Assembly: GCA_020056635.1 (NCBI GenBank)
Contig: JAGVHI010000009.1
Location: 1-34,522, forward strand
Direction: 5' to 3'
Length of the DNA: 34,522 nucleotides
Source of the DNA: an archaeon
GTDB lineage: Archaea; Micrarchaeota; Micrarchaeia; Anstonellales; Anstonellaceae
Both the position numbers and the translations under genes were made by a program. Of the stretch, positions 8,646-34,522 are shown piece by piece (the stretch's first letter is position 1; every line of letters begins with the position of its first letter). The notes under the pieces are model-generated. The model saw nothing but the letters and a program-made list of their open reading frames with translations. It had not been told where the DNA came from and did no database searches.

Positions 8646-8806
8646 GACGCTTAAATTCTCGTGTTCCTATTCGAGGAACAGAAAGACTGAAAATACGCTT
8701 AACTGTTTTCTGCGCACTTTTTGGGATTAAGCGCAGAAGATGCGCAAGCGAGCCGAGTGGGAAATAATTTCGGGATAGCACATCTCATCGAGCATGCATT
8801 TATAAG
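8646..8806 (+). promoter_or_regulatory. Subtilisin upstream region with array words and TATA box
   Basis: TTCTCGTGT (8656-8664) and TCCTATTCGA (8665-8674) repeat the words of array module e. TTAAGCGCAGAA (8727-8738) and GCGCAA (8742-8747) repeat module h, and TACGCTTAA (8694-8702) is an inverted variant. The TATA box TTTATAAG is at 8799-8806. This links the subtilisin gene to the 6005-6880 array, probably through a common regulator or common ancestry. Confidence 0.6.
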
Positions 8807-8846
8807 CACTTTAACACATAAATTGACACATAGAGGTGCGTTTCCA

Positions 8847-11800
8847 ATGGTAGTTGCTGCCACTTACGACAAGTCTGCTAAACTTATTCTTGCCCTTCTG
8901 CTGTGTTTGAACTTCGTTGCCGCGTACCAAATCCCGGCAGAGAGTATATCACCCCCTTCCTCCAGTCCCACACTTCCACTTGCCGATATAAGTAAGTTGA
9001 GCGATTATCGCTCGGATGTTAGTCCAGTTTGGAATATTGCTTCCAACGCGCAAGATGCGGGCAGTTCTTTAGACTCGACTGACACTTACCACGGGTATAT
9101 CATTCAGCTTACGGAGCCTGCAATCGCCGAATATCAAGGCCTGAACCAGAAAGTCGGTGGCGCTTCGGCAGGCTCTGGCGGGTATAAGAATAATCTCATA
9201 GAATCCCATGCCGAAGTCAAGAGTCGCCTGGCTAGGATTATTCCATTGACATTGGTCAAACGCGAGTACTTTTCGGTTTTCAACGGCCTTTTTGTAGATG
9301 TTTCCGATAAAGACATTGAGCGAATAAAGCTTATCCCGGGAGTTAAAGCCGTCTACAAGAATTATGAGGTAAAGGCAGCGTTAATGGACTCCGTTCCATT
9401 GATAAACGCGGACGACGCCTGGGCACTCGGCTATTCCGGGCAAGGGACGACGATTGCAATAATCGACACAGGTATAGATTATACGCATCCAGACCTGGGC
9501 GGATGCTTTGGAGCAGGCTGCAAAGTCGCAGGCGGATACGACTTCGTCAACGGCGATGCCGACCCTATGGACGACCATGGCCACGGAACGCATGTGGCAG
9601 GAATCGCAGCCGGAAACGGGGCGCTTAAAGGCGTCGCCCCAAATACAACCCTCTACGCGTATAAGGTGCTCAATTCGGGAGGTTCTGGTTGGGACAGCGA
9701 CGTTGTAGCAGCAATAGAACGCAGTGTCGATCCCAACGGAGACGGAAATACTTCTGACCATGCAGACGTAATCAGCATGAGCCTCGGGGTTAGTTCAATT
9801 TATTTCAATGACTGTTATGATGTTGCTTCTTCACAGGCAGTGGATAACACGGCTGACGCTGGAGCCGTTGTCGTAGTGGCCGCCGGAAATGATGAGTACG
9901 TCTCGACTATCGCCGCACCGGGCTGCGCTAAGGGGGCCATCACGGTTGGGGCAAGCAATAAGCAAGACGCCGTCGCAGATTTCAGCTCGCGTGGCCCCAC
10001 AAAGGATTTGCGTTTCAAGCCCGATGTCGTAGCCCCGGGCGTCGAGATTTGCTCGGCGCAGCATGACGACGCTTGGTCGTGGCTAAATTGCTATGACGAC
10101 AGCCATGTTGCCATATCTGGCACCAGCATGGCGACCCCGCATGTAGCTGGGGCATCTGCGCTGATGCTGCAAGCACATCCGGATTGGACCCCCATGCAAA
10201 TCAAGCAAGCACTCCGCCGAAGTGCAATTGATATAGGTTCCGACCCGCTTTCCCAAGGCTTCGGGCGCATCGATGTAATGGGTGCAATCCAATCCCCAAA
10301 CTTTCCAACCTCCGTGCTAACGACATCGGGTCCGGTCGAAGGGAGCGTTCCCATCACGGGAACAGCAGCGGGAAACGGGTTCACATCTTATATTCTGGAC
10401 TTCGGGAACGGCATCTCCCCAAGCAGCTGGCAAACCATAGCAGCAGGTTCGAGCCCCGTCGAGAACGGAACTCTTGGAACTCTTGATGCAGAATCACTCC
10501 CTGAAGGCGGGGTGTATGCATTGCGGCTGCGCACTTATGCCGGCGTCGATTACGCTGAGGACAAATCGTTTATTGCTGTGCCCGGTGAAGCAACGTGCTC
10601 TTCCTGTGAAGAGTGCGATCTCGACGCAGACATTCCTGGTATCAATCTAACCCTGAACCAGGACATCGGTTCTTATGGAAGCTGCATCCGTATTGATGCG
10701 GACAACGTAACCCTCGATTGCGCGGGCCATTCCATCAGGAACATGCCCTCTGAATCCTCGGCCTCAGGAATTAAGGCAGATTGGCGGAATAACGTAACGG
10801 TCAAGAATTGCGTCATCGAAGGGTATGGACGCTATGGCGCCTATGCTTTAAGCCTGAGAGGCGTCTTTGATTCATCCATTTTAGGGAATACATTGAATGG
10901 CAGCTATTGGGGATTGCGGCTCGACGGGGCAGACAACGTTATGAGAGACAATGCTATTGAAGAAAGGTATCAAGGGCCAAACCAAGGGCCGAATATGTTC
11001 GTATCCGGAGGCGTTAACGACATAGACACCTCGAACCTGATCGACGGCTTACCTGTTTATTACTTCCATGACGCCCACGACATGGAGGTAAGTGGCCTTG
11101 ACACGAAGTTCATCCATTTCGCCTTCAGCTCGAACGTAACAGTGCGAAACATCACCATGGACGGCGGTGACGGCATCTACTTCCAGCACACGGACAACAG
11201 CATGATTTCTGACAATGTCCTAACAAATGGCAGCGGACAGCACATTCTCCTGCAATATAGCGGCTCAAACAAAATAGAACGCAACACGCTCGAGAACGCT
11301 TATTTCGACGGAATCCTAATAACCTTCGACTCAACGGAAAACATCGTTAGGGACAACACAATACGCAACTCCTACTACGGAGTTTCGCTTTCCTCCTCGC
11401 AAAGAAACGTAGTCGAAGAAAATACTCTCGAGAACAACTATATTGGCCTTTTCGTCACTGACGATGGCAATACTGTCAGAAACAACAATATCTCTTTTGG
11501 GAATCTAGTGGATAACGAATGGAACAGCGGGGACGCAATAGGAGTTGCATTGGTGGAAGCAGACGGAAACGATATATCGAATAATACGATTAGGAGCACA
11601 GGAGAAGGATACTATTTCCGGGGTACCGGAATAATGCTGTGGGTTTGCCCCTCAAACAATAACTCATTAGTCGGCAATAGGATACTCAATACTACGGAAG
11701 GCATTAAGATTAACGGTTATGGTACAAATCCAGGATGCGACAACAACATCGTTCGGCAGAATGAGATAGCCTGGCAGCAATGCACATTTCGAGATAGCTG

Positions 11801-12911
11801 GCCGTATGGAAGTAACCCTGGACGCGGTTTAATATTGAGCTACAATAACGTGGGCAACAGAATAGAAGAGAATTCAATACATGATGTTGCAGGTTGCCCT
11901 GGCAATCAGGCCTACGGCATCCAAATCCTTTCCTCCCCGCAAAATATCATCATGCATAATTCGATAACTAATATAACAAATCAAAGCATAGCCATCCCAG
12001 TCTACGCAGACACTGCTTTCAATTTGTCTTTCCAACTTCAGGGAAACTATTGGGGAAGGACCTTGCCTCCATTATTCTGCGAGTACGAAAACCAGCATCC
12101 GAATTGCACAGATGACTGGGATTCCAATCGGGCGGATGTCATAGACTCCTGCCCATACGACAGAGCTTACCCGTACGGCGAATGGCCTGCTTCACCGGTT
12201 TGCTCCGTGAATTATTCCTTCACCTGCGACACCATGCAGCCAACCCAAACAGTGAACGTGCAGGACGGGCAGCAGCACTACTTCTCCATATTCAATGTCA
12301 CTCCAAACGAGTTCGTGCCCTACCGGAATCTTACTGTTTGCAGGCAATTCAACCTCACGAATGCAGGTGCAATCAGCAGCATGAGGCTGCGCAACGTGCT
12401 TATTGACGATGAAGGCTACATCGTGGCCAACGGGCACGTGGTTTCCTACTGGCCGGACCATCCGCGCGCCCCCCTTACGGTTGATATCAACACAGACATA
12501 ACGCCTTACATAAATACCGGCGCAGGCCAGACCAATTCGATCCTTGTATATGTGCAGGACAACCATCGGGTGGTTTACGGGGGCACCGTGCACATTGACA
12601 TAGGTTCGGGCGCAAGCTGCACCGCGACTGGCTCACTAGCTTCCCAGGATTCCGAGTGCTGCACAGGCATCTTAAGCGATGGGATTTGCGCCTGCAGGCC
12701 AAACGGCTCGTATGCCGAGAACCAGACTGCTTCGCTCTGCTGCAGCGGAATATACGCCGACCGCACATGTTCCACAAGACGGACTATTTTTCCCATCCCA
12801 ACAGAACCGCGCATAATAGATGATGGCGTCGGTACAATAGAGGATGCCGAGATTGGGATTCCTCCGCACTCTCAACCTCCTCCAAAAGGGGCAGCGACCT
12901 TTCCCGAATGA
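8847..12911 (+). CDS. Secreted subtilisin-like protease with beta-helix and C-terminal shared domain
   Basis: A 1354-residue protein from the ATG at 8847, chosen for the TATA box at 8799-8806 and GAGGTG at 8833-8838. It has a Sec signal peptide (1-26, cleaved near VAA-YQ), an I9-type propeptide (about 82-178), and a peptidase S8 domain (about 185-525) with D207 (IIDTGI), H246 (HGTHVAG), oxyanion N348 (AAGND) and S427 (GTSMATPH), so the triad is complete. A short beta-sandwich follows, then a right-handed parallel beta-helix of NosD/PbH1 type from about 590 to 1070 (repeating N-x-I-x-x-N rungs). The last part (about 1125-1310) is a domain shared with the metalloprotease at 29391-33203, ending in two CC-containing mini-modules. 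Secreted proteases of this kind degrade extracellular proteins; the beta-helix may bind glycans. It is bounded by repeats C and D. Confidence 0.93.
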   Translation: MVVAATYDKSAKLILALLLCLNFVAAYQIPAESISPPSSSPTLPLADISKLSDYRSDVSPVWNIASNAQDAGSSLDSTDTYHGYIIQLTEPAIAEYQGLNQKVGGASAGSGGYKNNLIESHAEVKSRLARIIPLTLVKREYFSVFNGLFVDVSDKDIERIKLIPGVKAVYKNYEVKAALMDSVPLINADDAWALGYSGQGTTIAIIDTGIDYTHPDLGGCFGAGCKVAGGYDFVNGDADPMDDHGHGTHVAGIAAGNGALKGVAPNTTLYAYKVLNSGGSGWDSDVVAAIERSVDPNGDGNTSDHADVISMSLGVSSIYFNDCYDVASSQAVDNTADAGAVVVVAAGNDEYVSTIAAPGCAKGAITVGASNKQDAVADFSSRGPTKDLRFKPDVVAPGVEICSAQHDDAWSWLNCYDDSHVAISGTSMATPHVAGASALMLQAHPDWTPMQIKQALRRSAIDIGSDPLSQGFGRIDVMGAIQSPNFPTSVLTTSGPVEGSVPITGTAAGNGFTSYILDFGNGISPSSWQTIAAGSSPVENGTLGTLDAESLPEGGVYALRLRTYAGVDYAEDKSFIAVPGEATCSSCEECDLDADIPGINLTLNQDIGSYGSCIRIDADNVTLDCAGHSIRNMPSESSASGIKADWRNNVTVKNCVIEGYGRYGAYALSLRGVFDSSILGNTLNGSYWGLRLDGADNVMRDNAIEERYQGPNQGPNMFVSGGVNDIDTSNLIDGLPVYYFHDAHDMEVSGLDTKFIHFAFSSNVTVRNITMDGGDGIYFQHTDNSMISDNVLTNGSGQHILLQYSGSNKIERNTLENAYFDGILITFDSTENIVRDNTIRNSYYGVSLSSSQRNVVEENTLENNYIGLFVTDDGNTVRNNNISFGNLVDNEWNSGDAIGVALVEADGNDISNNTIRSTGEGYYFRGTGIMLWVCPSNNNSLVGNRILNTTEGIKINGYGTNPGCDNNIVRQNEIAWQQCTFRDSWPYGSNPGRGLILSYNNVGNRIEENSIHDVAGCPGNQAYGIQILSSPQNIIMHNSITNITNQSIAIPVYADTAFNLSFQLQGNYWGRTLPPLFCEYENQHPNCTDDWDSNRADVIDSCPYDRAYPYGEWPASPVCSVNYSFTCDTMQPTQTVNVQDGQQHYFSIFNVTPNEFVPYRNLTVCRQFNLTNAGAISSMRLRNVLIDDEGYIVANGHVVSYWPDHPRAPLTVDINTDITPYINTGAGQTNSILVYVQDNHRVVYGGTVHIDIGSGASCTATGSLASQDSECCTGILSDGICACRPNGSYAENQTASLCCSGIYADRTCSTRRTIFPIPTEPRIIDDGVGTIEDAEIGIPPHSQPPPKGAATFPE

Positions 12912-26862: not shown

Positions 26863-29349
26863 TCAGGCTGCCTTGCAGCCCCCGGCATCGCAGAAGAACC
26901 CGTCGCAGCAGCCCCTGCCCTGCGGGTCCTTGTCACCACAAGTAGTGGTGGAGCATGCATTGCAATCTTTAGTAATGTCATTGCATGTGTACCCATAGCA
27001 GCAGGGCTGGGTTGAGCAGAACTCGTATGAGCAGTCCTTGCAGATCCCCTCAACACATGTGGAGCCGTAGCAGCAGGGTGCATCCCTGCAGTCGCCATTC
27101 ATTTCAACACAGGAGGCGCATTTGTTGTCCGCGCCGCATGCAAGCCCTGAGCAGCACGGGGTGTCCGGGCTGCATGATTCCATTGAGCATATGGTGCATT
27201 CGTTATTGTCGCACGAAAGCCCTTCCCCTTCGCAGCATGTGTGGGTCAGGTCGCAGAATTCCCCCTTGTTCGAGCAGCCTGGCAGCTGTTGCTCGCAGAT
27301 GTTTGATGCGCATTGGTAGCCGTCGCAGCAGAAGTGAGGCGTGAGGCAGCTGCCCCCGGTAGTTGAGCATTCGGTCATGCAAGTCCCGCCTTCGCACGTA
27401 AGCCCTTCGCAGCATGGTTCTAGTTCGCTGCACGAGCCTGTTGAGCACCCGTGGCAATAACTGTCTCCACCGCAGTAGAGCCCTGCACAACATGGTTTTG
27501 TCGGAGTGCAGGTGGTGAATTCGCCAACGCATGTGGTGCAGGTGCCACTTATGCACGTGCTGTCAGCGCAGCAGGGCTGCCCATCCTTGCATACCGAGCC
27601 ACTTTCAACGCATGTGATGCAGTTCCCGCCCTCGCATGCCTTTCCGGAGCAGCAGGGTGTAAGCGGGCTGCATGTTTTATCAGAACATATCCTGCACCTT
27701 CCGCTTATGCAGCCAAATCCATCGCAGCAGAGGTTCGTTCCGCTGCAGGTCTGGCCTTCTAAGGCGCACCCGGTGCAGAAGCCGTTGGTGCAGACAGTGC
27801 CCTCGCAGCACGTTGACCCGTCCTTGCATGAACCGCCCGAGGGGGTGCAGACATCTGCGCATACTCCCTCATCGCACATGAGGTTCTCGCAGCAATCAGA
27901 ATCGCCCTCACAATCCGCCCCTTTAGCCACGCACACTTCGCATAGGAAATTCGGGTAGCTGCCTGTGCACTTGTAACCATCACAGCATGCGACCTTGCCA
28001 GGGGTGCACCTGTCAGGTGGCATTGCACAGTTCCTGCACTCGTATTCGCCATCATGCTCAGAGCAAACATATGAGTTGCAGCAGGGATTAAGCTCGTCGC
28101 AGAGCTGCCCGCCTATGCCGCACGGGACGCACTCACCTGAAATGCATTTATTATCCCCGCAGCACGGGTTTGCAAGCGAGCAGGATTCATTCACGCAGAC
28201 TGTGCAGACATGGGTATTGTAGTTGCATGCCATTCCAGGGCAGCAGTCAGCATCGTAAGAGCAGTAATGCCCTTCAGGTGTGCATCCGCTGTCCGTTTCC
28301 GCGCATATCCCGTCATTGCAGTACTGGTAGCAGCAGTCATAATCGTGCATGCATTGTTCTCCAGACGGAAGGCACTGGTACCATCCGTTGCACGCATAGG
28401 AGAGGTTCCCAGTCGGGCTGCAGTAATAATCAGAGCAGCAGGTGCCGTTCGCATAAGGAGGGTTGGAAGGGGTGCAGGAAGAAGGCGGTTCTCCGCAGCC
28501 GCCATCAAGAGGCGACCCGCCTCCGCATGTGTAGGTGGTTGCATTGCAGTTTGCATTGCAGCAGAGGTCATCGCTTGGGTCGCAGAAGCCGTCATCTGGA
28601 ACGCATAGGCATGTTGGAGAACATTGAACATATTCACTTGGGTTGCAGGAGGTTTCTCCACCGCAACTTGCCAATTCATCTTCTGTACAGGTGCTTTCCC
28701 AAGTTCCAGCGCACACAAGTGTTGGATTGCTTGACTGACATCTTGCATCGCAGCCGCTCGAAGTGGCTGAGCAGGTGCCGAATGTGCACCTGCCTGAGAT
28801 GCATTCAGAATTGTCTGTGCAGGTGCCGGATATTTTTACGCAGTTTCCGTTGTAATTCACTGAGCCTGAGCAGCAGGTGCCAGTGGCAGGAGAGCCTGCT
28901 GGGATGCAGGCAGGCGTGTTTGGGTCGCAATTGGAGAGGTACAGTGGCACATTCCCCTGTTCAATCAAGTCCAAATCACCGTATAAATAGTAAATCATGA
29001 GGTCATGCTCGCAATCATTTGAGCGGTTGGTGAAATTGAGAAGCAATGATTCACCAGGCCCAAGCTCTGCAAAAAGCGGGTTTGACATGCCGTCCAAATC
29101 AATCCTAGTGATTGTGATTCTCTCATCGTCATTGTTTGTGAATGCAACGGCTGCCGAGCCATCCGGGTTGAGCGTGCTGTCAAGTATCCCTAGAGGGCGC
29201 ATGGCGCGCCAATAGGCATCGGATTGCAGCTGGCGCGCATTTGGAATCCCCCCAGTTCCTGCAAGCGCAACTAAGGAAGCAACAATAACGCCAATCAAAA
29301 GGACAACAGCCACAAGAAGAAGATAATCGGTTGCACCCTGACCCCTCAT
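26863..29349 (-). CDS. Giant cysteine-rich surface protein with class III signal peptide
   Basis: An 828-residue protein from the ATG at 29349, about 27 bases after the TATA-like TTTTATAAAT (minus strand, 29371-29380), so leaderless. It opens MRGQGATDYLLL, then a hydrophobic VAVVLLIGVIVASLVAL: a class III signal peptide, cut after MRG by an archaellin/pilin-type peptidase so the helix can pack into a filament. Residues about 35-125 are a pilin-like beta domain. The rest is about 20 tandem disulfide modules, each near C-x5/6-C-x3/5-CC-x3/4-C-x4/6-C-x2-C, resembling knottin or Dickkopf-type folds. A filament or stalk carrying a very stable, protease-resistant extracellular rod is likely. The T-rich minus-strand DNA after the stop may terminate transcription. 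It lies 41 bases downstream of the metalloprotease gene. Confidence 0.88.
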   Translation of the reverse strand: MRGQGATDYLLLVAVVLLIGVIVASLVALAGTGGIPNARQLQSDAYWRAMRPLGILDSTLNPDGSAAVAFTNNDDERITITRIDLDGMSNPLFAELGPGESLLLNFTNRSNDCEHDLMIYYLYGDLDLIEQGNVPLYLSNCDPNTPACIPAGSPATGTCCSGSVNYNGNCVKISGTCTDNSECISGRCTFGTCSATSSGCDARCQSSNPTLVCAGTWESTCTEDELASCGGETSCNPSEYVQCSPTCLCVPDDGFCDPSDDLCCNANCNATTYTCGGGSPLDGGCGEPPSSCTPSNPPYANGTCCSDYYCSPTGNLSYACNGWYQCLPSGEQCMHDYDCCYQYCNDGICAETDSGCTPEGHYCSYDADCCPGMACNYNTHVCTVCVNESCSLANPCCGDNKCISGECVPCGIGGQLCDELNPCCNSYVCSEHDGEYECRNCAMPPDRCTPGKVACCDGYKCTGSYPNFLCEVCVAKGADCEGDSDCCENLMCDEGVCADVCTPSGGSCKDGSTCCEGTVCTNGFCTGCALEGQTCSGTNLCCDGFGCISGRCRICSDKTCSPLTPCCSGKACEGGNCITCVESGSVCKDGQPCCADSTCISGTCTTCVGEFTTCTPTKPCCAGLYCGGDSYCHGCSTGSCSELEPCCEGLTCEGGTCMTECSTTGGSCLTPHFCCDGYQCASNICEQQLPGCSNKGEFCDLTHTCCEGEGLSCDNNECTICSMESCSPDTPCCSGLACGADNKCASCVEMNGDCRDAPCCYGSTCVEGICKDCSYEFCSTQPCCYGYTCNDITKDCNACSTTTCGDKDPQGRGCCDGFFCDAGGCKAA
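28516..28667 (-). repeat. 152-base near-identical segment, copy 1
   Basis: It matches 34371-34522 at 141 of 152 bases with no gaps. It encodes the stretch from CGGETSCNP through CVPDD to NATTYTCGGG in the cysteine-rich protein. Neighbouring modules of the two genes are far less alike, which points to recent duplication or gene conversion. Copy 2 reaches the window edge, so the true length is unknown. Confidence 0.85.
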
Positions 29350-29370: not shown

Positions 29371-29380
29371 ATTTATAAAA
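29371..29380 (-). promoter_or_regulatory. TATA box of the giant cysteine-rich gene
   Basis: TTTTATAAAT read on the minus strand is centred about 26 bases before ATG 29349. It decides the leaderless start and rejects the longer open frame to 29475. Confidence 0.6.
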
Positions 29381-29390
29381 TCACCTTTTT

Positions 29391-32300
29391 TCAGGCGCAC
29401 CTGCTTGGAGCCATTGAATCCATGTACAGGTTGGTGATGCAGACATTTGAGCAGCACTGTGAATTCATATTGCATTCTGATTCAGGAGGCAAACAGACCG
29501 GCAGTATTGGGAATACTTCTATGACTTCACCTATTTCTTCACCAATGCCGCCCGGTATTCCGCTTCCTCCAAGCACTACGCAAGAGTATTGGATGGGCGG
29601 GGTTTCTTCATAAGAAGGCTGATTGGAATTGCCTATTTCATCATTTTCTGAAATCCCTCCGTTGCCAGGCTGGGGGAGCACATCGCCCCGTATGCCGCTG
29701 CTCCCGCCCTGCCCTATGCAGTCCGTACCTTGCGGACATGAGCAATCCTGTAAACATGAGTTGCAATTTTCCCCTCCTGCAGCATCGCATGCGCCATCTC
29801 CGCAATTGAAGAGAGGAGGTGCCCCGCTTGCAGAGCACCTTCTTGCATAGTAAATTCCGCTGCAGCAGAGGCTTGCGCTCCATTCTTCAGCTTCAGCGTA
29901 AGTTCCATTGGGCTTGCACACGCACACTCCATCCTGGCTTAAACCTGTGCAGCATTCGGAAGGCTGGCTTGCTGCATTGCCAGCTGCAATGCATCCTGCG
30001 CCTGAGCCAACATCAATTTGGACAGTCCCTCCATATACAACACTGTATATGTCCCCCACATATGCAAGTATTTCGTTGGTTTCCCCTGCACCAGTCCTGA
30101 GGCTAGCATTGGACAGGTCAAAGTCTATATCCATTGTAAGGGGCGCCCTTTCCCTTGGCCACCAGTAATGCACAAGGTGCCCGTTCACCACCAGGTAGCC
30201 CTCATCATCAAAGAGGAGATTCCTGATTTTCATGCTGGTGATTGGCCCGGAATTGGTAAGATTGAAGTACCTGCAGGCGGTTTGGGTTGAATAGGGGGGG
30301 AATTCATTTGGAGTGATATTGAATATTGAGAAGTAGTGCTGCTGCCCTTCCTGCGCATTAACATCCTGCGTTGGCCGCATTATATCACAGGTGAATGGAT
30401 AGCCACAGTACCCATCATTGCATGCCCCCCCGCAGCATTGCGAATCATTGCTGCAGAATGCGCCGTTTGGCATGCAGCCTAGCACTTGGAAGCCGGGCAG
30501 GGTGATGCCCTTAATCGGGTCGTAATTCTCTGTGTAAAGCCCGTTCTGGTCAAGGTCAACTATCAAGTCATATGAGCCAGGTTCTGGGTTCTGCCAGAGC
30601 ACATAGCTTGCATCCCCCCCAAGGCTGTTCCAGGTCCATACATACCTGTCAAGCGGGTCGCCATTGCTCCATGCCCTGTCATATGGCAGGTAAACCGGAA
30701 GCTGGGCATTTGGGGGGAATCCTAGGTAATTTGCGATTATTGGAGTTGCAGGGGGGAATTGGTCGCTGTCAGGGCCGAATGCAGAGCTGCTTGTAGTCAC
30801 ATGCGGAGCATATACTATGAATGCAACTGAGGACGAGCCGATGTTGTTTGAGGAATCATTTGCCCAAGCCCTAAGAACATTTGAACCAAGGTCGAATTGC
30901 CTGTAGATTGGAGCCGAATAAGTATAGTTTGTGCCGTTCCACTCATACCAGACCCTTGAGCAGGCGCCTGCGCAGGTAGAGGAGAGGTTGATTAGGATTG
31001 ATTCATTCATGTAGCTCGTGTTTAGCGGCGATAAAATAGTGACTGAAGGCGCAATGACTGAGAATGAGGTAGTTGAATCTATGCTTGAGTTGTAGAGCCC
31101 GTCCCGGTCAGTGTCTATGATTATATCAAAATCGCCTGCTTGGTTGGCTGTCCAAAGAGATGCATTGAACTTTCCGTAAACATCCATTGGCTGGTTAAGC
31201 TGCACTATCGAACCTTGAATTGATTCACCATCATCCCTGCTTGCTGAGTGGGGCATAATATAGATGTTCGCACTTGTCCTTGGTGCGAATGAAGAGCCGT
31301 TTGCCCATACTTGGGAGTTCAGGGTGAAATTGTATTTTGGAGTGAATGGGGAGCCTGAACTTGGATTGGCTGCACCTTTGCGTGCGCAATAGGTATCAGG
31401 GTATACTCCAGGCAAGAAAGAATGATTGAAATTGAAAGCATCGCAGATTGCGCGGCGGTCAGGCGAAGCGAATATATCGCCATTGCCTTGGTATGCCGCG
31501 CCTGAGGCGACCTGAATGAGCGTGTCAAAGAATTGCGAATAGTTCCTTGGCGTGAATTTGTAAGTTTGGAGGATTATTGCATCTGCACGGAGTGTGCCGT
31601 TGTTTGTGAAACTGTTTCCGGAATAGCCGTAGTTCTGGAGGAAGTTCTTGCGGAGGTCCCATTTTGAACCAGTAAGTAGTTTACTGCTCCCATAGCACTC
31701 ACCAGTTAGGTCTATTGGGTAACGCTTGGAATTGCTAACATTTCGCGTGGTCGGGTTGACAACTGATTCATTATTTATTGAAGTTGCAAAATAATCCCCC
31801 AAGGCTTCATCCATTGCGTCTCCTTCAGATGGACCACAAGGATTAGAGTCACCTATAAAGTTAGTATCAGTGTAAAGAGAATTACCAATGAGAATGTGGC
31901 CGTATTCATGATATGTCACGTCCGAATATAGAGCGTTATTACATGTTGTATCGTTCCCATATTTGATATACAGCCCACTACTGGCTGCTGAAGCATTTGT
32001 ACAACCAGTTAGATTGTTTAGTTTGCCAGATACACGGACATTCATTTCAGTCAGATTAAAAGGGTCGTATCCTCTTACATAAAAATCATGAATCTTATTC
32101 AGATGGTAAAAGACGTTAGGCTCTTGATATCGGTCACGGTATGGATAAGAAAGATCATTCCAAATCCAATTGTTATACGCAGGATCCACTGGTATAGTAT
32201 AATTATAAGATGTTCTTATTTGACCATTTCGTAATTCTACCATTACCCAAGGATTTCTGAAGTTTTGATTCAACCCGCTATAATAGCTTAGTGTCGAGTA

Positions 32301-33203
32301 TAACATCGAGGCCGCGGGTGGAGGATTATAAGTGATAACAAAACTACCGTTTGGATTAGTTGTTGCAAATCCAAATGATTGTGTAGGACTCGTCCTATTC
32401 ACCACCGAAACGTTCAAATCCTTGAACGGAACTGCAATCGCAGCCCCATGATCCGGGTCGTGCGGCCAAATCATGCCAGTCACGTTGCCGCTTATTGTTG
32501 CATGCGCTTCCAAAGAGGTCTTGCTCAACAGCTTTCCAGTTTGAGCGTCTATAATTACACGATAGGAGTCGGTTTCAGAATCCGAGGCAAGGTCAATGAG
32601 CCAAACTAAAGCTGCCTTTGCCCCATCTTCTGAAATTGGCAAGATGACAAGTTTGGAAGTGTAGATGGTTTCATCATCCTTCTTATTGCCGTCAACTGCC
32701 GTTTTCGCTATTCCAACTGCCCTTTTCTCGTTTACTTTCGGAACAGCATTCACATTTATCTTTGGGTAATATTTAGCCCCCATTGAAGCAAGCTTGTCGT
32801 CAATGTAAAGGAATTTCACTTCAGAGCCGTAAACTGGCACATTGTTGTACTGCTGCTCAAAAAATACAAAAAAATAGCCGCTTGTGCTAACCCCAGGAGG
32901 CTTATCATTGGTTATTTTTTGGAGCTTCAAGTTCGAAGGTCTTATGCCCAGTTCCTTGTTTTCAGAAAGGAGTTGCCTGGAAACTGATTCTATAGATTTG
33001 GAGTTGATGGCTGATTTCTGAACTGAGGTTATTTGCCCAATTGGGAGGAATTTTGAGAAGAATAATGAGTCTGAATAGCCAGCCTTGCTGTAGGAGACTG
33101 AAGCATCTTTCAAATAAGGCTTGAGAGGCTGCGCAAACGTCAAGGAGATTAGGGAATAAACAATAAGTAGTATGAATGCATTCCTTGTGATGCTTGGTCG
33201 CAT
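29391..33203 (-). CDS. Secreted thermolysin/fungalysin-like metalloprotease with C-terminal shared domain
   Basis: A 1270-residue protein. Signal peptide at 1-24 (AFILLIVYSLISLTFA). An FTP/PepSY-type propeptide spans about 70-230 (YFFVFFEQQYNNVPVYGSEV, ID--AQTGKLLSKTS). The gluzincin domain (about 340-620) has NVFYHLNKIHDFY, the zinc motif HEYGH (H432, E433, H436) and a third ligand in DEALGDYFA (E466). Many N-x-S/T sites follow. Then come Ig-like domains (about 720-900), a CC module, and the domain shared with the subtilisin at 8847-12911 (about 937-1125). The tail ends with a Cys-rich stretch (CGDGACDAAGGENCNSC, then CNMNSQCC). It would degrade extracellular protein. The TATA box at 33227-33236 predicts a leaderless mRNA. 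Confidence 0.92.
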   Translation of the reverse strand: MRPSITRNAFILLIVYSLISLTFAQPLKPYLKDASVSYSKAGYSDSLFFSKFLPIGQITSVQKSAINSKSIESVSRQLLSENKELGIRPSNLKLQKITNDKPPGVSTSGYFFVFFEQQYNNVPVYGSEVKFLYIDDKLASMGAKYYPKINVNAVPKVNEKRAVGIAKTAVDGNKKDDETIYTSKLVILPISEDGAKAALVWLIDLASDSETDSYRVIIDAQTGKLLSKTSLEAHATISGNVTGMIWPHDPDHGAAIAVPFKDLNVSVVNRTSPTQSFGFATTNPNGSFVITYNPPPAASMLYSTLSYYSGLNQNFRNPWVMVELRNGQIRTSYNYTIPVDPAYNNWIWNDLSYPYRDRYQEPNVFYHLNKIHDFYVRGYDPFNLTEMNVRVSGKLNNLTGCTNASAASSGLYIKYGNDTTCNNALYSDVTYHEYGHILIGNSLYTDTNFIGDSNPCGPSEGDAMDEALGDYFATSINNESVVNPTTRNVSNSKRYPIDLTGECYGSSKLLTGSKWDLRKNFLQNYGYSGNSFTNNGTLRADAIILQTYKFTPRNYSQFFDTLIQVASGAAYQGNGDIFASPDRRAICDAFNFNHSFLPGVYPDTYCARKGAANPSSGSPFTPKYNFTLNSQVWANGSSFAPRTSANIYIMPHSASRDDGESIQGSIVQLNQPMDVYGKFNASLWTANQAGDFDIIIDTDRDGLYNSSIDSTTSFSVIAPSVTILSPLNTSYMNESILINLSSTCAGACSRVWYEWNGTNYTYSAPIYRQFDLGSNVLRAWANDSSNNIGSSSVAFIVYAPHVTTSSSAFGPDSDQFPPATPIIANYLGFPPNAQLPVYLPYDRAWSNGDPLDRYVWTWNSLGGDASYVLWQNPEPGSYDLIVDLDQNGLYTENYDPIKGITLPGFQVLGCMPNGAFCSNDSQCCGGACNDGYCGYPFTCDIMRPTQDVNAQEGQQHYFSIFNITPNEFPPYSTQTACRYFNLTNSGPITSMKIRNLLFDDEGYLVVNGHLVHYWWPRERAPLTMDIDFDLSNASLRTGAGETNEILAYVGDIYSVVYGGTVQIDVGSGAGCIAAGNAASQPSECCTGLSQDGVCVCKPNGTYAEAEEWSASLCCSGIYYARRCSASGAPPLFNCGDGACDAAGGENCNSCLQDCSCPQGTDCIGQGGSSGIRGDVLPQPGNGGISENDEIGNSNQPSYEETPPIQYSCVVLGGSGIPGGIGEEIGEVIEVFPILPVCLPPESECNMNSQCCSNVCITNLYMDSMAPSRCA

Positions 33204-33226: not shown

Positions 33227-33236
33227 CTGTTTATAA
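33227..33236 (-). promoter_or_regulatory. TATA box of the metalloprotease gene
   Basis: GTTTATAAAC, palindromic, is centred about 28 bases before the ATG at 33203 and 16 bases after the stop of the upstream cysteine-rich gene. Confidence 0.6.
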
Positions 33237-33251
33237 ACGTTTGTGCTAGTT

Positions 33252-34522
33252 TCAGGGATTGCAATACACTTGGGAATTGCAGGAATTGGAGCAGCAGTCC
33301 GAGTCCCGCCTGCATGACTCATACTCTACGTGGCAGGTGTATTCAGGAACACAGATGTCAACAAAGCAGTAATAGCCAAAGCAGCACTCAGAATCATCAT
33401 TGCAAAAGCCTTGGTAGGGGCTTATGCACTCTACGCATACTCCAGCCCCATATTCACTGCATATGTAGCCGGAGCAGCATTGTGAATCCTGTGAGCAGCT
33501 CTCCCCTTGCTCATTGCATGTGCACGCATCAGCCTGGCATTGGCCTCCACAGCAGTTGCCAGAGCAGCAAAATCCATCGCTAAAACATGAGTCACCGTTA
33601 TTTACGCAGCAGGTGCCTTGTGCCTCATTGCAACTGCCTGAGCAGCATTGGCCATCGGAGGTGCATGCGTATGCCCCGTCTTCTGCGCAAACGCCGCAGC
33701 TCCTAGTCATTGAATTGCAGTTAGAGTTGCAACAGTCAGATAGTTCATCGCATTGGCCGCCATCAGGAACACAGGCTGCAACGCACGAGCCGTCAGCGCA
33801 AATTCCTGAGCAACATTCGTCATTTTCATCGCAATTTCCACCAGGGGGTTTGCAAAGCCTGCAGGTGCCTTCACCATACCTAAATTGGCAAGTTACAAGT
33901 GGAGCGCAACAGTCCTCAGTGGAATTGCATGGCTGGCCGATTTGGTCGCATGCAGGTTCTGAGCAGGTGCCTTTATAACAAGTTAATCCATCACAGCAAT
34001 CCCCGCCATACGGACCTGGGCAAGAATCTTCAGGCCCTAAGCAACCAGTACATCCATGATAAGAGTAGCTGCAGTATGTCCCTGAACAGCAGCCGCCGGA
34101 TTCAGGAGGCATGGGCAGGCAGGAGCCTGAGCCAGTCATGCACTGCCTGCAAGTGCCATCGGAACAGAAACTGCCCGTACCAGGATATTCACAGCAGTCA
34201 GAATCGCCTATGCATGTTCCCTGCCCGTTTGGAATGCATGAGTATGATGCGCCGCATGAGTAGTTGCCCTCTCCGCTTGGGTTGCAGTAACCCTCACAGC
34301 AATCCCCTTGGCCGCCGCTTTCACCAGGGTTGCATACTTCGCCTTCGCCTATGCAATCGGTCAACCCAGCCCCGCCTCCGCATGTGTAAGTGGTTGCATT
34401 GCAGTTCGCATTGCAGCAGAGGTCATTTGCTGGGTCGCAGAAAGAGTCATCAGGAACGCATAGGCATGTTGGAGAACATTGAACATATTCACTTGGGTTG
34501 CAGGAGGTTTCTCCATCGCAAC
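33252..34522 (-). CDS. Cysteine-rich disulfide-module protein (5' end outside window)
   Basis: The minus strand is open from the window edge to the TGA at 33252-33254 (423 complete codons). The start is missing: the TTG near 34364 is internal, because the frame continues upstream and encodes sequence almost identical to the giant cysteine-rich protein (CNPSEYVQCSPTCLCVPDD, then CCNANCNATTYTCGGG). The visible part contains about 14 CC dipeptides in modules of the same plan, for example CSQDSQCCSGYIC and CEYPGTGSFCSDGTC. It is presumably secreted and rich in disulfides, and probably also carries an N-terminal export signal outside the window. It is the upstream paralogue of the gene at 26863-29349, with the metalloprotease between them. 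Confidence 0.85.
   Translation of the reverse strand, partial: CDGETSCNPSEYVQCSPTCLCVPDDSFCDPANDLCCNANCNATTYTCGGGAGLTDCIGEGEVCNPGESGGQGDCCEGYCNPSGEGNYSCGASYSCIPNGQGTCIGDSDCCEYPGTGSFCSDGTCRQCMTGSGSCLPMPPESGGCCSGTYCSYSYHGCTGCLGPEDSCPGPYGGDCCDGLTCYKGTCSEPACDQIGQPCNSTEDCCAPLVTCQFRYGEGTCRLCKPPGGNCDENDECCSGICADGSCVAACVPDGGQCDELSDCCNSNCNSMTRSCGVCAEDGAYACTSDGQCCSGSCNEAQGTCCVNNGDSCFSDGFCCSGNCCGGQCQADACTCNEQGESCSQDSQCCSGYICSEYGAGVCVECISPYQGFCNDDSECCFGYYCFVDICVPEYTCHVEYESCRRDSDCCSNSCNSQVYCNP
34371..34522 (-). repeat. 152-base near-identical segment, copy 2 (cut by window edge)
   Basis: Ungapped match at 141 of 152 bases to 28516-28667. It runs into the window edge, so the duplication may extend further. 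Confidence 0.85.

Follow-up and report, generated by a model that had tools for sequence, protein, structure and literature searches.

Type IV pilins of bacteria can be large and modular. In Streptococcus sanguinis, PilB carries a vWA module and PilC a lectin-like module, and the graft in PilB mediates adhesion; in a survey, more than 1,200 modular pilins with 264 architectures were found, one of them with 12 repeats in 860 residues (PMC8179133). In the available text of that paper the family searched is bacterial, and the word "archaea" does not occur. Several archaeal pilus components contain cysteines and likely disulfides, and some loci encode large proteins which are possible adhesins or minor pilins; knottin-type arrays on pilins are not described in the available part of that report (PMC4858521). 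Titles and abstract openings of the open-licence PMC literature yielded no description of knottin arrays on archaeal pilins.

The window considered here (the whole stretch of 34,522 nucleotides that was analysed) is contig C12 of a 1.10 Mb genome assembly in 27 contigs, which is 78.8% complete and is designated G000. A first-pass annotation had assigned it to a DPANN cell, in agreement with its affiliation to the Micrarchaeota and with a pilus ATPase closest to that of Candidatus Micrarchaeota, to which 67 of the 80 named relatives retained are ascribed; contaminant or eukaryotic DNA was rejected on account of archaeal neighbours and relatives. The same annotation drew attention to a protein of 828 residues with a pilin-type (class III) signal and about 20 disulfide-type, knottin-like modules. 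This protein, termed array pilin, its parts and its neighbours are as follows (basis of assignment in brackets).

26863–29349, minus strand: array pilin, 828 residues, with class III signal, pilin domain, Cys-rich linker and 19 knottin-like modules (translation, Cys counts, pattern test)
29257–29349, minus strand: class III signal and first hydrophobic helix, residues 1–31 (sequence; helix 5–31 in the model)
28927–29349, minus strand: pilin domain, residues 1–141, closing at the last Cys of the small pilins (alignment, model, Foldseek)
28606–28926, minus strand: irregular Cys-rich stretch, residues 142–248, its DNA largely near-identical to that of the tandem paralog (sequence, DNA comparison, dS)
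26875–28605, minus strand: 19 six-cysteine modules, residues 249–825, joined mostly by 2–3 residues (pattern test, linkers, PDB profile, model)
29372–29379, no strand assigned: putative TATA-box-like octamer TTTATAAA, 22 bases before the start codon of the array pilin (word count)
29391–33203, minus strand: secreted fungalysin-like metallopeptidase, 1270 residues, with the motif HEYGH and knottin-like modules that occur singly; situated between two array pilins (sequence)
33230–33237, no strand assigned: putative TATA-box-like octamer TTTATAAA before the metallopeptidase (word count)
33252–34520, minus strand: tandem paralog, likewise an array pilin, with 12 modules; the window contains its C-terminal 422 residues (head on contig C20, positions 1–717)

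Throughout the reading frame of the array pilin the minus strand is open and the plus strand is full of stops. The mechanical open reading frame begins 42 codons further upstream, at 29475; we prefer the start at 29349, since this is where the class III signal begins and since TTTATAAA precedes it by 22 bases. This octamer occurs five times in the window (at 1006, 6935, 18802, 29372 and 33230), compared with 0.65 expected copies, and none of 100 shuffles reached five. Four of the five copies are situated not more than 35 bases before a gene start, a placement which suggests leaderless mRNAs. With the whole array pilin, no Pfam family scored above the cut-off and no NCBIfam match was obtained; an 80-residue piece matched Toxin_12 just above the Pfam cut-off (24.2 versus 21 bits). 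Close relatives were not confirmed in a general search of genome contigs, from which its own and very near records were possibly excluded. For a phage or viral origin there was no support either: the array pilin had no match among phages, nor among viral contigs in a search that is sensitive to close relatives only.

The N-terminus of the array pilin fits a class III prepilin signal, with Gly at −1, Asp at +5 and a hydrophobic stretch thereafter. Residues 1–141 can be aligned in their entirety with the small pilins which related genomes encode, as far as the last Cys of the latter; by this alignment, the head is homologous to ordinary pilins of 150–170 residues from related Micrarchaeota. Three ordinary small pilins (155–161 residues) are also grouped on contig C25 of G000. 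The Pfam family of the class III signal, PF04021, matched 38 of 51 aligned heads; for the array pilin's own head no family was found at E 0.01, PF04021 included. An AF2 model of the head, based on the 51 aligned heads (pLDDT 90.5, pTM 0.71), contains helices at residues 5–31 and 38–49, followed by seven strands. The two top matches of this model in a Foldseek search of the PDB were the pilus structures 8q30 (S. acidocaldarius AAP, E 1.9e-4) and 8fk7 (P. calidifontis, E 1.0e-3), and the sequence profile of the head also retrieved 8fk7 (E 5.9e-4) and 8q30 (E 0.031). With VIA-align, the pili reached Z values of 7.5 and 7.2, which were tied with those of unrelated beta sandwiches. The pilin-type signal claimed in the first pass was thus confirmed, and with it a real pilin domain, as judged from alignment, model and Foldseek.

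Residues 249–825 contain 19 modules with the pattern C-x(4-6)-C-x(4-9)-CC-x(3-6)-C-x(4-8)-C, close to the earlier estimate; with this one fixed pattern, 1000 residue shuffles gave a mean of 1.2 and a maximum of 5, and a chance pattern of Cys was rejected on these grounds. The whole protein contains 138 Cys and 21 "CC" pairs; since residues 142–248 are Cys-rich but irregular, the regular modules are regarded as confined to residues 249–825. In 54 three-module stretches 15 Cys columns were invariant and 3 nearly so, and no other residue was conserved to this extent. A profile of 32 two-module stretches found 68 PDB sequences at E ≤ 1, the best 60 of which were almost all knottins, plus Dickkopf; Xt3a (2.8e-5), Dkk4 (1.2e-4) and double-knot toxin (1.9e-4) were at the top, within a leading group of two-knot proteins and Dickkopf-4 extending up to 2.5e-4. 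A three-module model (pLDDT 86.5, pTM 0.54) superposed on single knottins at 0.6–1.1 Å, and its comparison with Dickkopf-1 gave a VIA Z of 5.3 over 54 residues. Foldseek E-values were weak (best 0.084), as expected for such short chains. According to the profile matches and the predicted three-module fold, the modules appear to be knottin-like, as had been proposed.

The composition of residues 142–828 (19.8% Cys, net charge of −62 calculated as K+R−D−E) could also be that of a metal- or redox-active chain, which would bind metals or transfer electrons through thiolates in place of disulfides; Micrarchaeota are often found in anoxic, metal-rich waters. However, the order of the cysteines and the conserved Gly match those of knottins, the module model folds as knottins do and DsbA-like proteins are encoded in the genome, which makes such a function very improbable. 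The anatomy proposed here, i.e., a pilin head with knottin-type modules, is very likely. By sequence and model, the array pilin is an archaeal modular pilin, in which a complete pilin domain is followed directly by a stretch rich in Cys and by the 19 modules of knottin type.

The ends of contigs C12 and C20 share 20 bases, and the joined frame of the tandem paralog is open, with 655 residues, 98 Cys and 12 modules. Since the contig breaks within the near-identical stretch of the tandem paralogs, the end of the window is an assembly break caused by the repeat. Between the tandem copies, a dN of 0.106 versus a dS of 1.55 was obtained for residues 1–60, and synonymous change was saturated in residues 61–141; as far as substitution rates indicate, the pilin head is kept under purifying selection. 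For residues 160–280, dS was only 0.276, and from residue 156 the DNA identity was 87–98% in six consecutive steps of 60 bases. From this drop of dS inside one gene pair we infer a recent sequence exchange between the tandem copies.

The metallopeptidase between them was matched by PepSY with E 2.4e-4, below the Pfam cut-off, and by the M36 model of NCBIfam with E 1.3e-4, far below the cut-off. The three minus-strand genes are separated by gaps of 41 and 48 bases; in spite of these short distances an operon of three genes is not claimed, because two of the genes have a TATA-like octamer of their own. A stretch of about 170 residues at the C-terminus is similar, by eye, in the metallopeptidase and in a beta-helix subtilase (8721–12911), and suggests a surface-attachment or sorting domain shared by the two. 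The secreted metallopeptidase, whose gene is located 41 bases upstream of the array pilin, could be thought of as a processing enzyme, which would cut a precursor into free knottin peptides acting on neighbour cells; the framework of the modules is indeed that of secreted knottins. Yet the linkers are mostly of 2–3 residues, residues 142–828 contain no dibasic site and the metallopeptidase carries knottin-like modules itself. Also, such a peptidase was not evident beside other array genes, in gene lists showing only the beginnings of proteins. Free peptides as the product can hardly be considered probable at all.

The linked pilus assembly ATPase for which the first-pass annotation had recommended a search was found, together with two TadC-like proteins, on contig C20. 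The T2SSE ATPase (E 9.4e-41) is encoded about 11 kb from the start of the tandem paralog, and the two proteins beside it, at 7–9 kb, were named TadC-like by sequence reading only; all three are situated 7–13 kb beyond the tandem paralog. Matches to T2SSE above the cut-off were present at three places in G000, and a pilus ATPase was present in each of the 25 genomes searched. Of the two proteins on whose presence the earlier reading had been made to depend, the ATPase therefore exists. No A24 prepilin peptidase scored above the cut-off in the 78.8%-complete G000, and one was detected in 34 of 39 genomes searched, including all 19 other members of the family; gaps in the assembly are probably the best explanation for the missing match in G000. 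A weak match of PF01478 at position 98302 of contig C25 was rejected as prepilin peptidase, as it falls within a small pilin.

The need for an extracellular disulfide-forming system had also been stressed in the first pass, and this expectation held in part. G000 encodes three DsbA-like proteins (PF13462), which are candidates for thiol oxidoreductases acting outside the cytoplasm: a small protein with lipoprotein-like start and the motif CPAC; a CPYC domain within a secreted protein of 1468 residues (L205:1456-5862, on C20) with repeated domains of beta-rich appearance; and a membrane protein with CFSC. A VKOR-like protein of 92 residues (L037:1468-1746) has kept the loop pair of Cys, but the second half, in which the CxxC motif is located, is absent. 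Half-length VKOR-like proteins are strongly alike in G000 and G004 (L088 near 1501-1725), both of which are rich in array pilins. Neither VKOR nor PF13462 was matched in the family member G001, which is rated 100% complete and encodes an array of 24 modules in an array pilin of 853 residues; the link of arrays to a disulfide system is consequently not uniform.

In the stretches of G000 that were read, 18 proteins with at least two modules were present, 17 of them with a pilin-type N-terminus, which is divergent in its signal in two cases (L039:17066 and L039:17939). These stretches had been picked around head matches, and a profile scan blind to heads was therefore added. It gave at least 22 matches at E ≤ 1e-6 in at least 13 genes; 23 of 123 candidates were scored, and all 22 scored matches were in genes with a pilin-type N-terminus. 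The view of an unusual single appendage protein was not supported as first put forward: G000 encodes at least 17 such proteins, the array pilin included, and bacteria are known to possess large modular pilins. Array pilins range up to about 2500 residues, and CARDB, a domain related to adhesion, was detected in all six other large array pilins scanned (from G000 and G004). A cut-off protein at the end of contig C22 (L039:19655-19999) has knottin modules directly after a putative C-terminal motif of a Hint/intein domain. Some Cys-rich, lipoprotein-like proteins (L209:1890-4673, L038:18671-19999) contain another Cys repeat without the knottin pattern; one example has 927 residues and 69 Cys.

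Throughout the phylum, 18 of 295 genomes, G000 included, had a match to the module profile at E ≤ 1e-6. In the family of the window these were 4 of 20 genomes (G000, G001, G004 and G015), all with pilin-headed arrays, and the notion of a curiosity of a single genome was rejected on account of the three others. G004, which corresponds to archaeon DeMMO2_7 (JAGVIA010000090.1) by identical match places, encodes many array pilins; G015 encodes one of 262 residues and, additionally, a Sec-type secreted protein with modules. Three genomes from outside the Micrarchaeota (one of Woesearchaeota, two of Aenigmatarchaeota), a number too small for a conclusion, gave no matches to knottin arrays. In a tree of 70 heads, the label "array" changed 7 times (bootstrap 6–9), and for G000 and G004 the array-bearing heads clustered mostly by genome. 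Only 2 of these changes are forced by the starred branches; several independent attachments of arrays to pilin heads are likely, although not proven, and a single origin is doubtful.

In families f7 and f17, the N-terminus is complete in 10 array proteins; in 9 of them a plain N-terminal membrane segment preceded the modules, the tenth (L058) being ambiguous, and no class III signal was detected in the first 75 residues of these 10 proteins. Three loci with cut 5' end or uncertain start (G025, and G283 twice) were left out of this count; outside these families are G159 (f23, cut) and G226 (f22, lipoprotein-like). Since arrays are borne by plain membrane anchors elsewhere in the phylum, their display need not involve pili, and array pilins of about 2500 residues would be hard to fit along the shaft of a filament. 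Both observations, and the number of at least 17 array pilins in one genome, would suit the main rival to display on filaments, namely a membrane-bound coat, in which the class III head is an anchor only and single rods form a disulfide-rich glycocalyx or a substitute for an S-layer. Against such a coat are the retention of an entire pilin domain under purifying selection, not of the helix alone, and the linked ATPase with its two TadC-like proteins. A coat without filaments appears rather unlikely to us.

Modular pilins which display knottin rods on a filament, for purposes of adhesion, are the explanation we favour, and we hold it to be probable, though by no means secure. A prepilin would be threaded into the membrane through its class III signal and cleaved after Gly3; the linked ATPase/TadC machine would then incorporate the mature array pilin into a filament of the type IV kind, or into the tip of one. 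If the bacterial modular pilins, as far as the available text describes them (PMC8179133), are taken as a model, the array would probably be at or near the tip of the filament, for binding. Outside the cell the modules could oxidise with the help of the DsbA-like proteins, and the oxidised array should be rod-like, stiff, acidic and resistant to proteases, with a length of some tens of nm; its variable inter-cysteine loops may bind a surface, a polymer or a partner cell. A role in adhesion would fit the rigid framework with variable loops, CARDB in sister proteins and the lineage-specific expansion. The many paralogs, together with sequence exchange between tandem copies, could vary the displayed repertoire. 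That the paralogs present different arrays on type IV pili, reshuffled by gene conversion, for host recognition by an ultra-small cell of symbiotic or predatory habit, is an extension which we regard as unlikely at present. In any case, array pilins are concrete, sequence-defined surface proteins with a linked machine, which could allow DPANN archaea to recognise or hold partner cells.

With respect to known systems, the array pilin resembles the archaeal adhesion pili (S. acidocaldarius AAP, 8q30; Pyrobaculum, 8fk7 and 6w8u) in its long N-terminal helix and beta-sandwich head; in contrast to it, the matched chains have 136–144 residues and no room for a graft. The C..C..CC..C..C spacing, the profile and, tentatively, the predicted fold are those of knottins (Xt3a, 7rz3; double-knot toxin, 7l2m; Dickkopf, 9x64 and 3s2k). 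The solved knottins which were matched contain one or two knots each and either come from animals or plants or were designed, whereas the array pilin has 19 in tandem and is archaeal. Short Cys patterns can converge, and this likeness may be due to convergence. Long tandem arrays of the knottin framework, which is familiar mainly from venoms and from inhibitors of plants, are now placed in the Archaea, and such very stable, simply built rods may be of interest to protein engineers. Candidatus Fermentimicrarchaeum limneticum Sv326 (CP058998.1; G099 in our set, by identical match places) possesses tandem modules recognised by the same profile, 14 in 544 residues, but these follow an ordinary N-terminal membrane segment and not a pilin head. 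Like the bacterial modular pilins (PMC8179133, as far as available), the array pilin combines a small N-terminal pilin module with a larger graft which is not specific to pili. It differs from them as an archaeal class III pilin with a knottin array for a graft and with many paralogs per genome, and the concept of modular pilins is extended by it from bacteria to the class III pilins of archaea.
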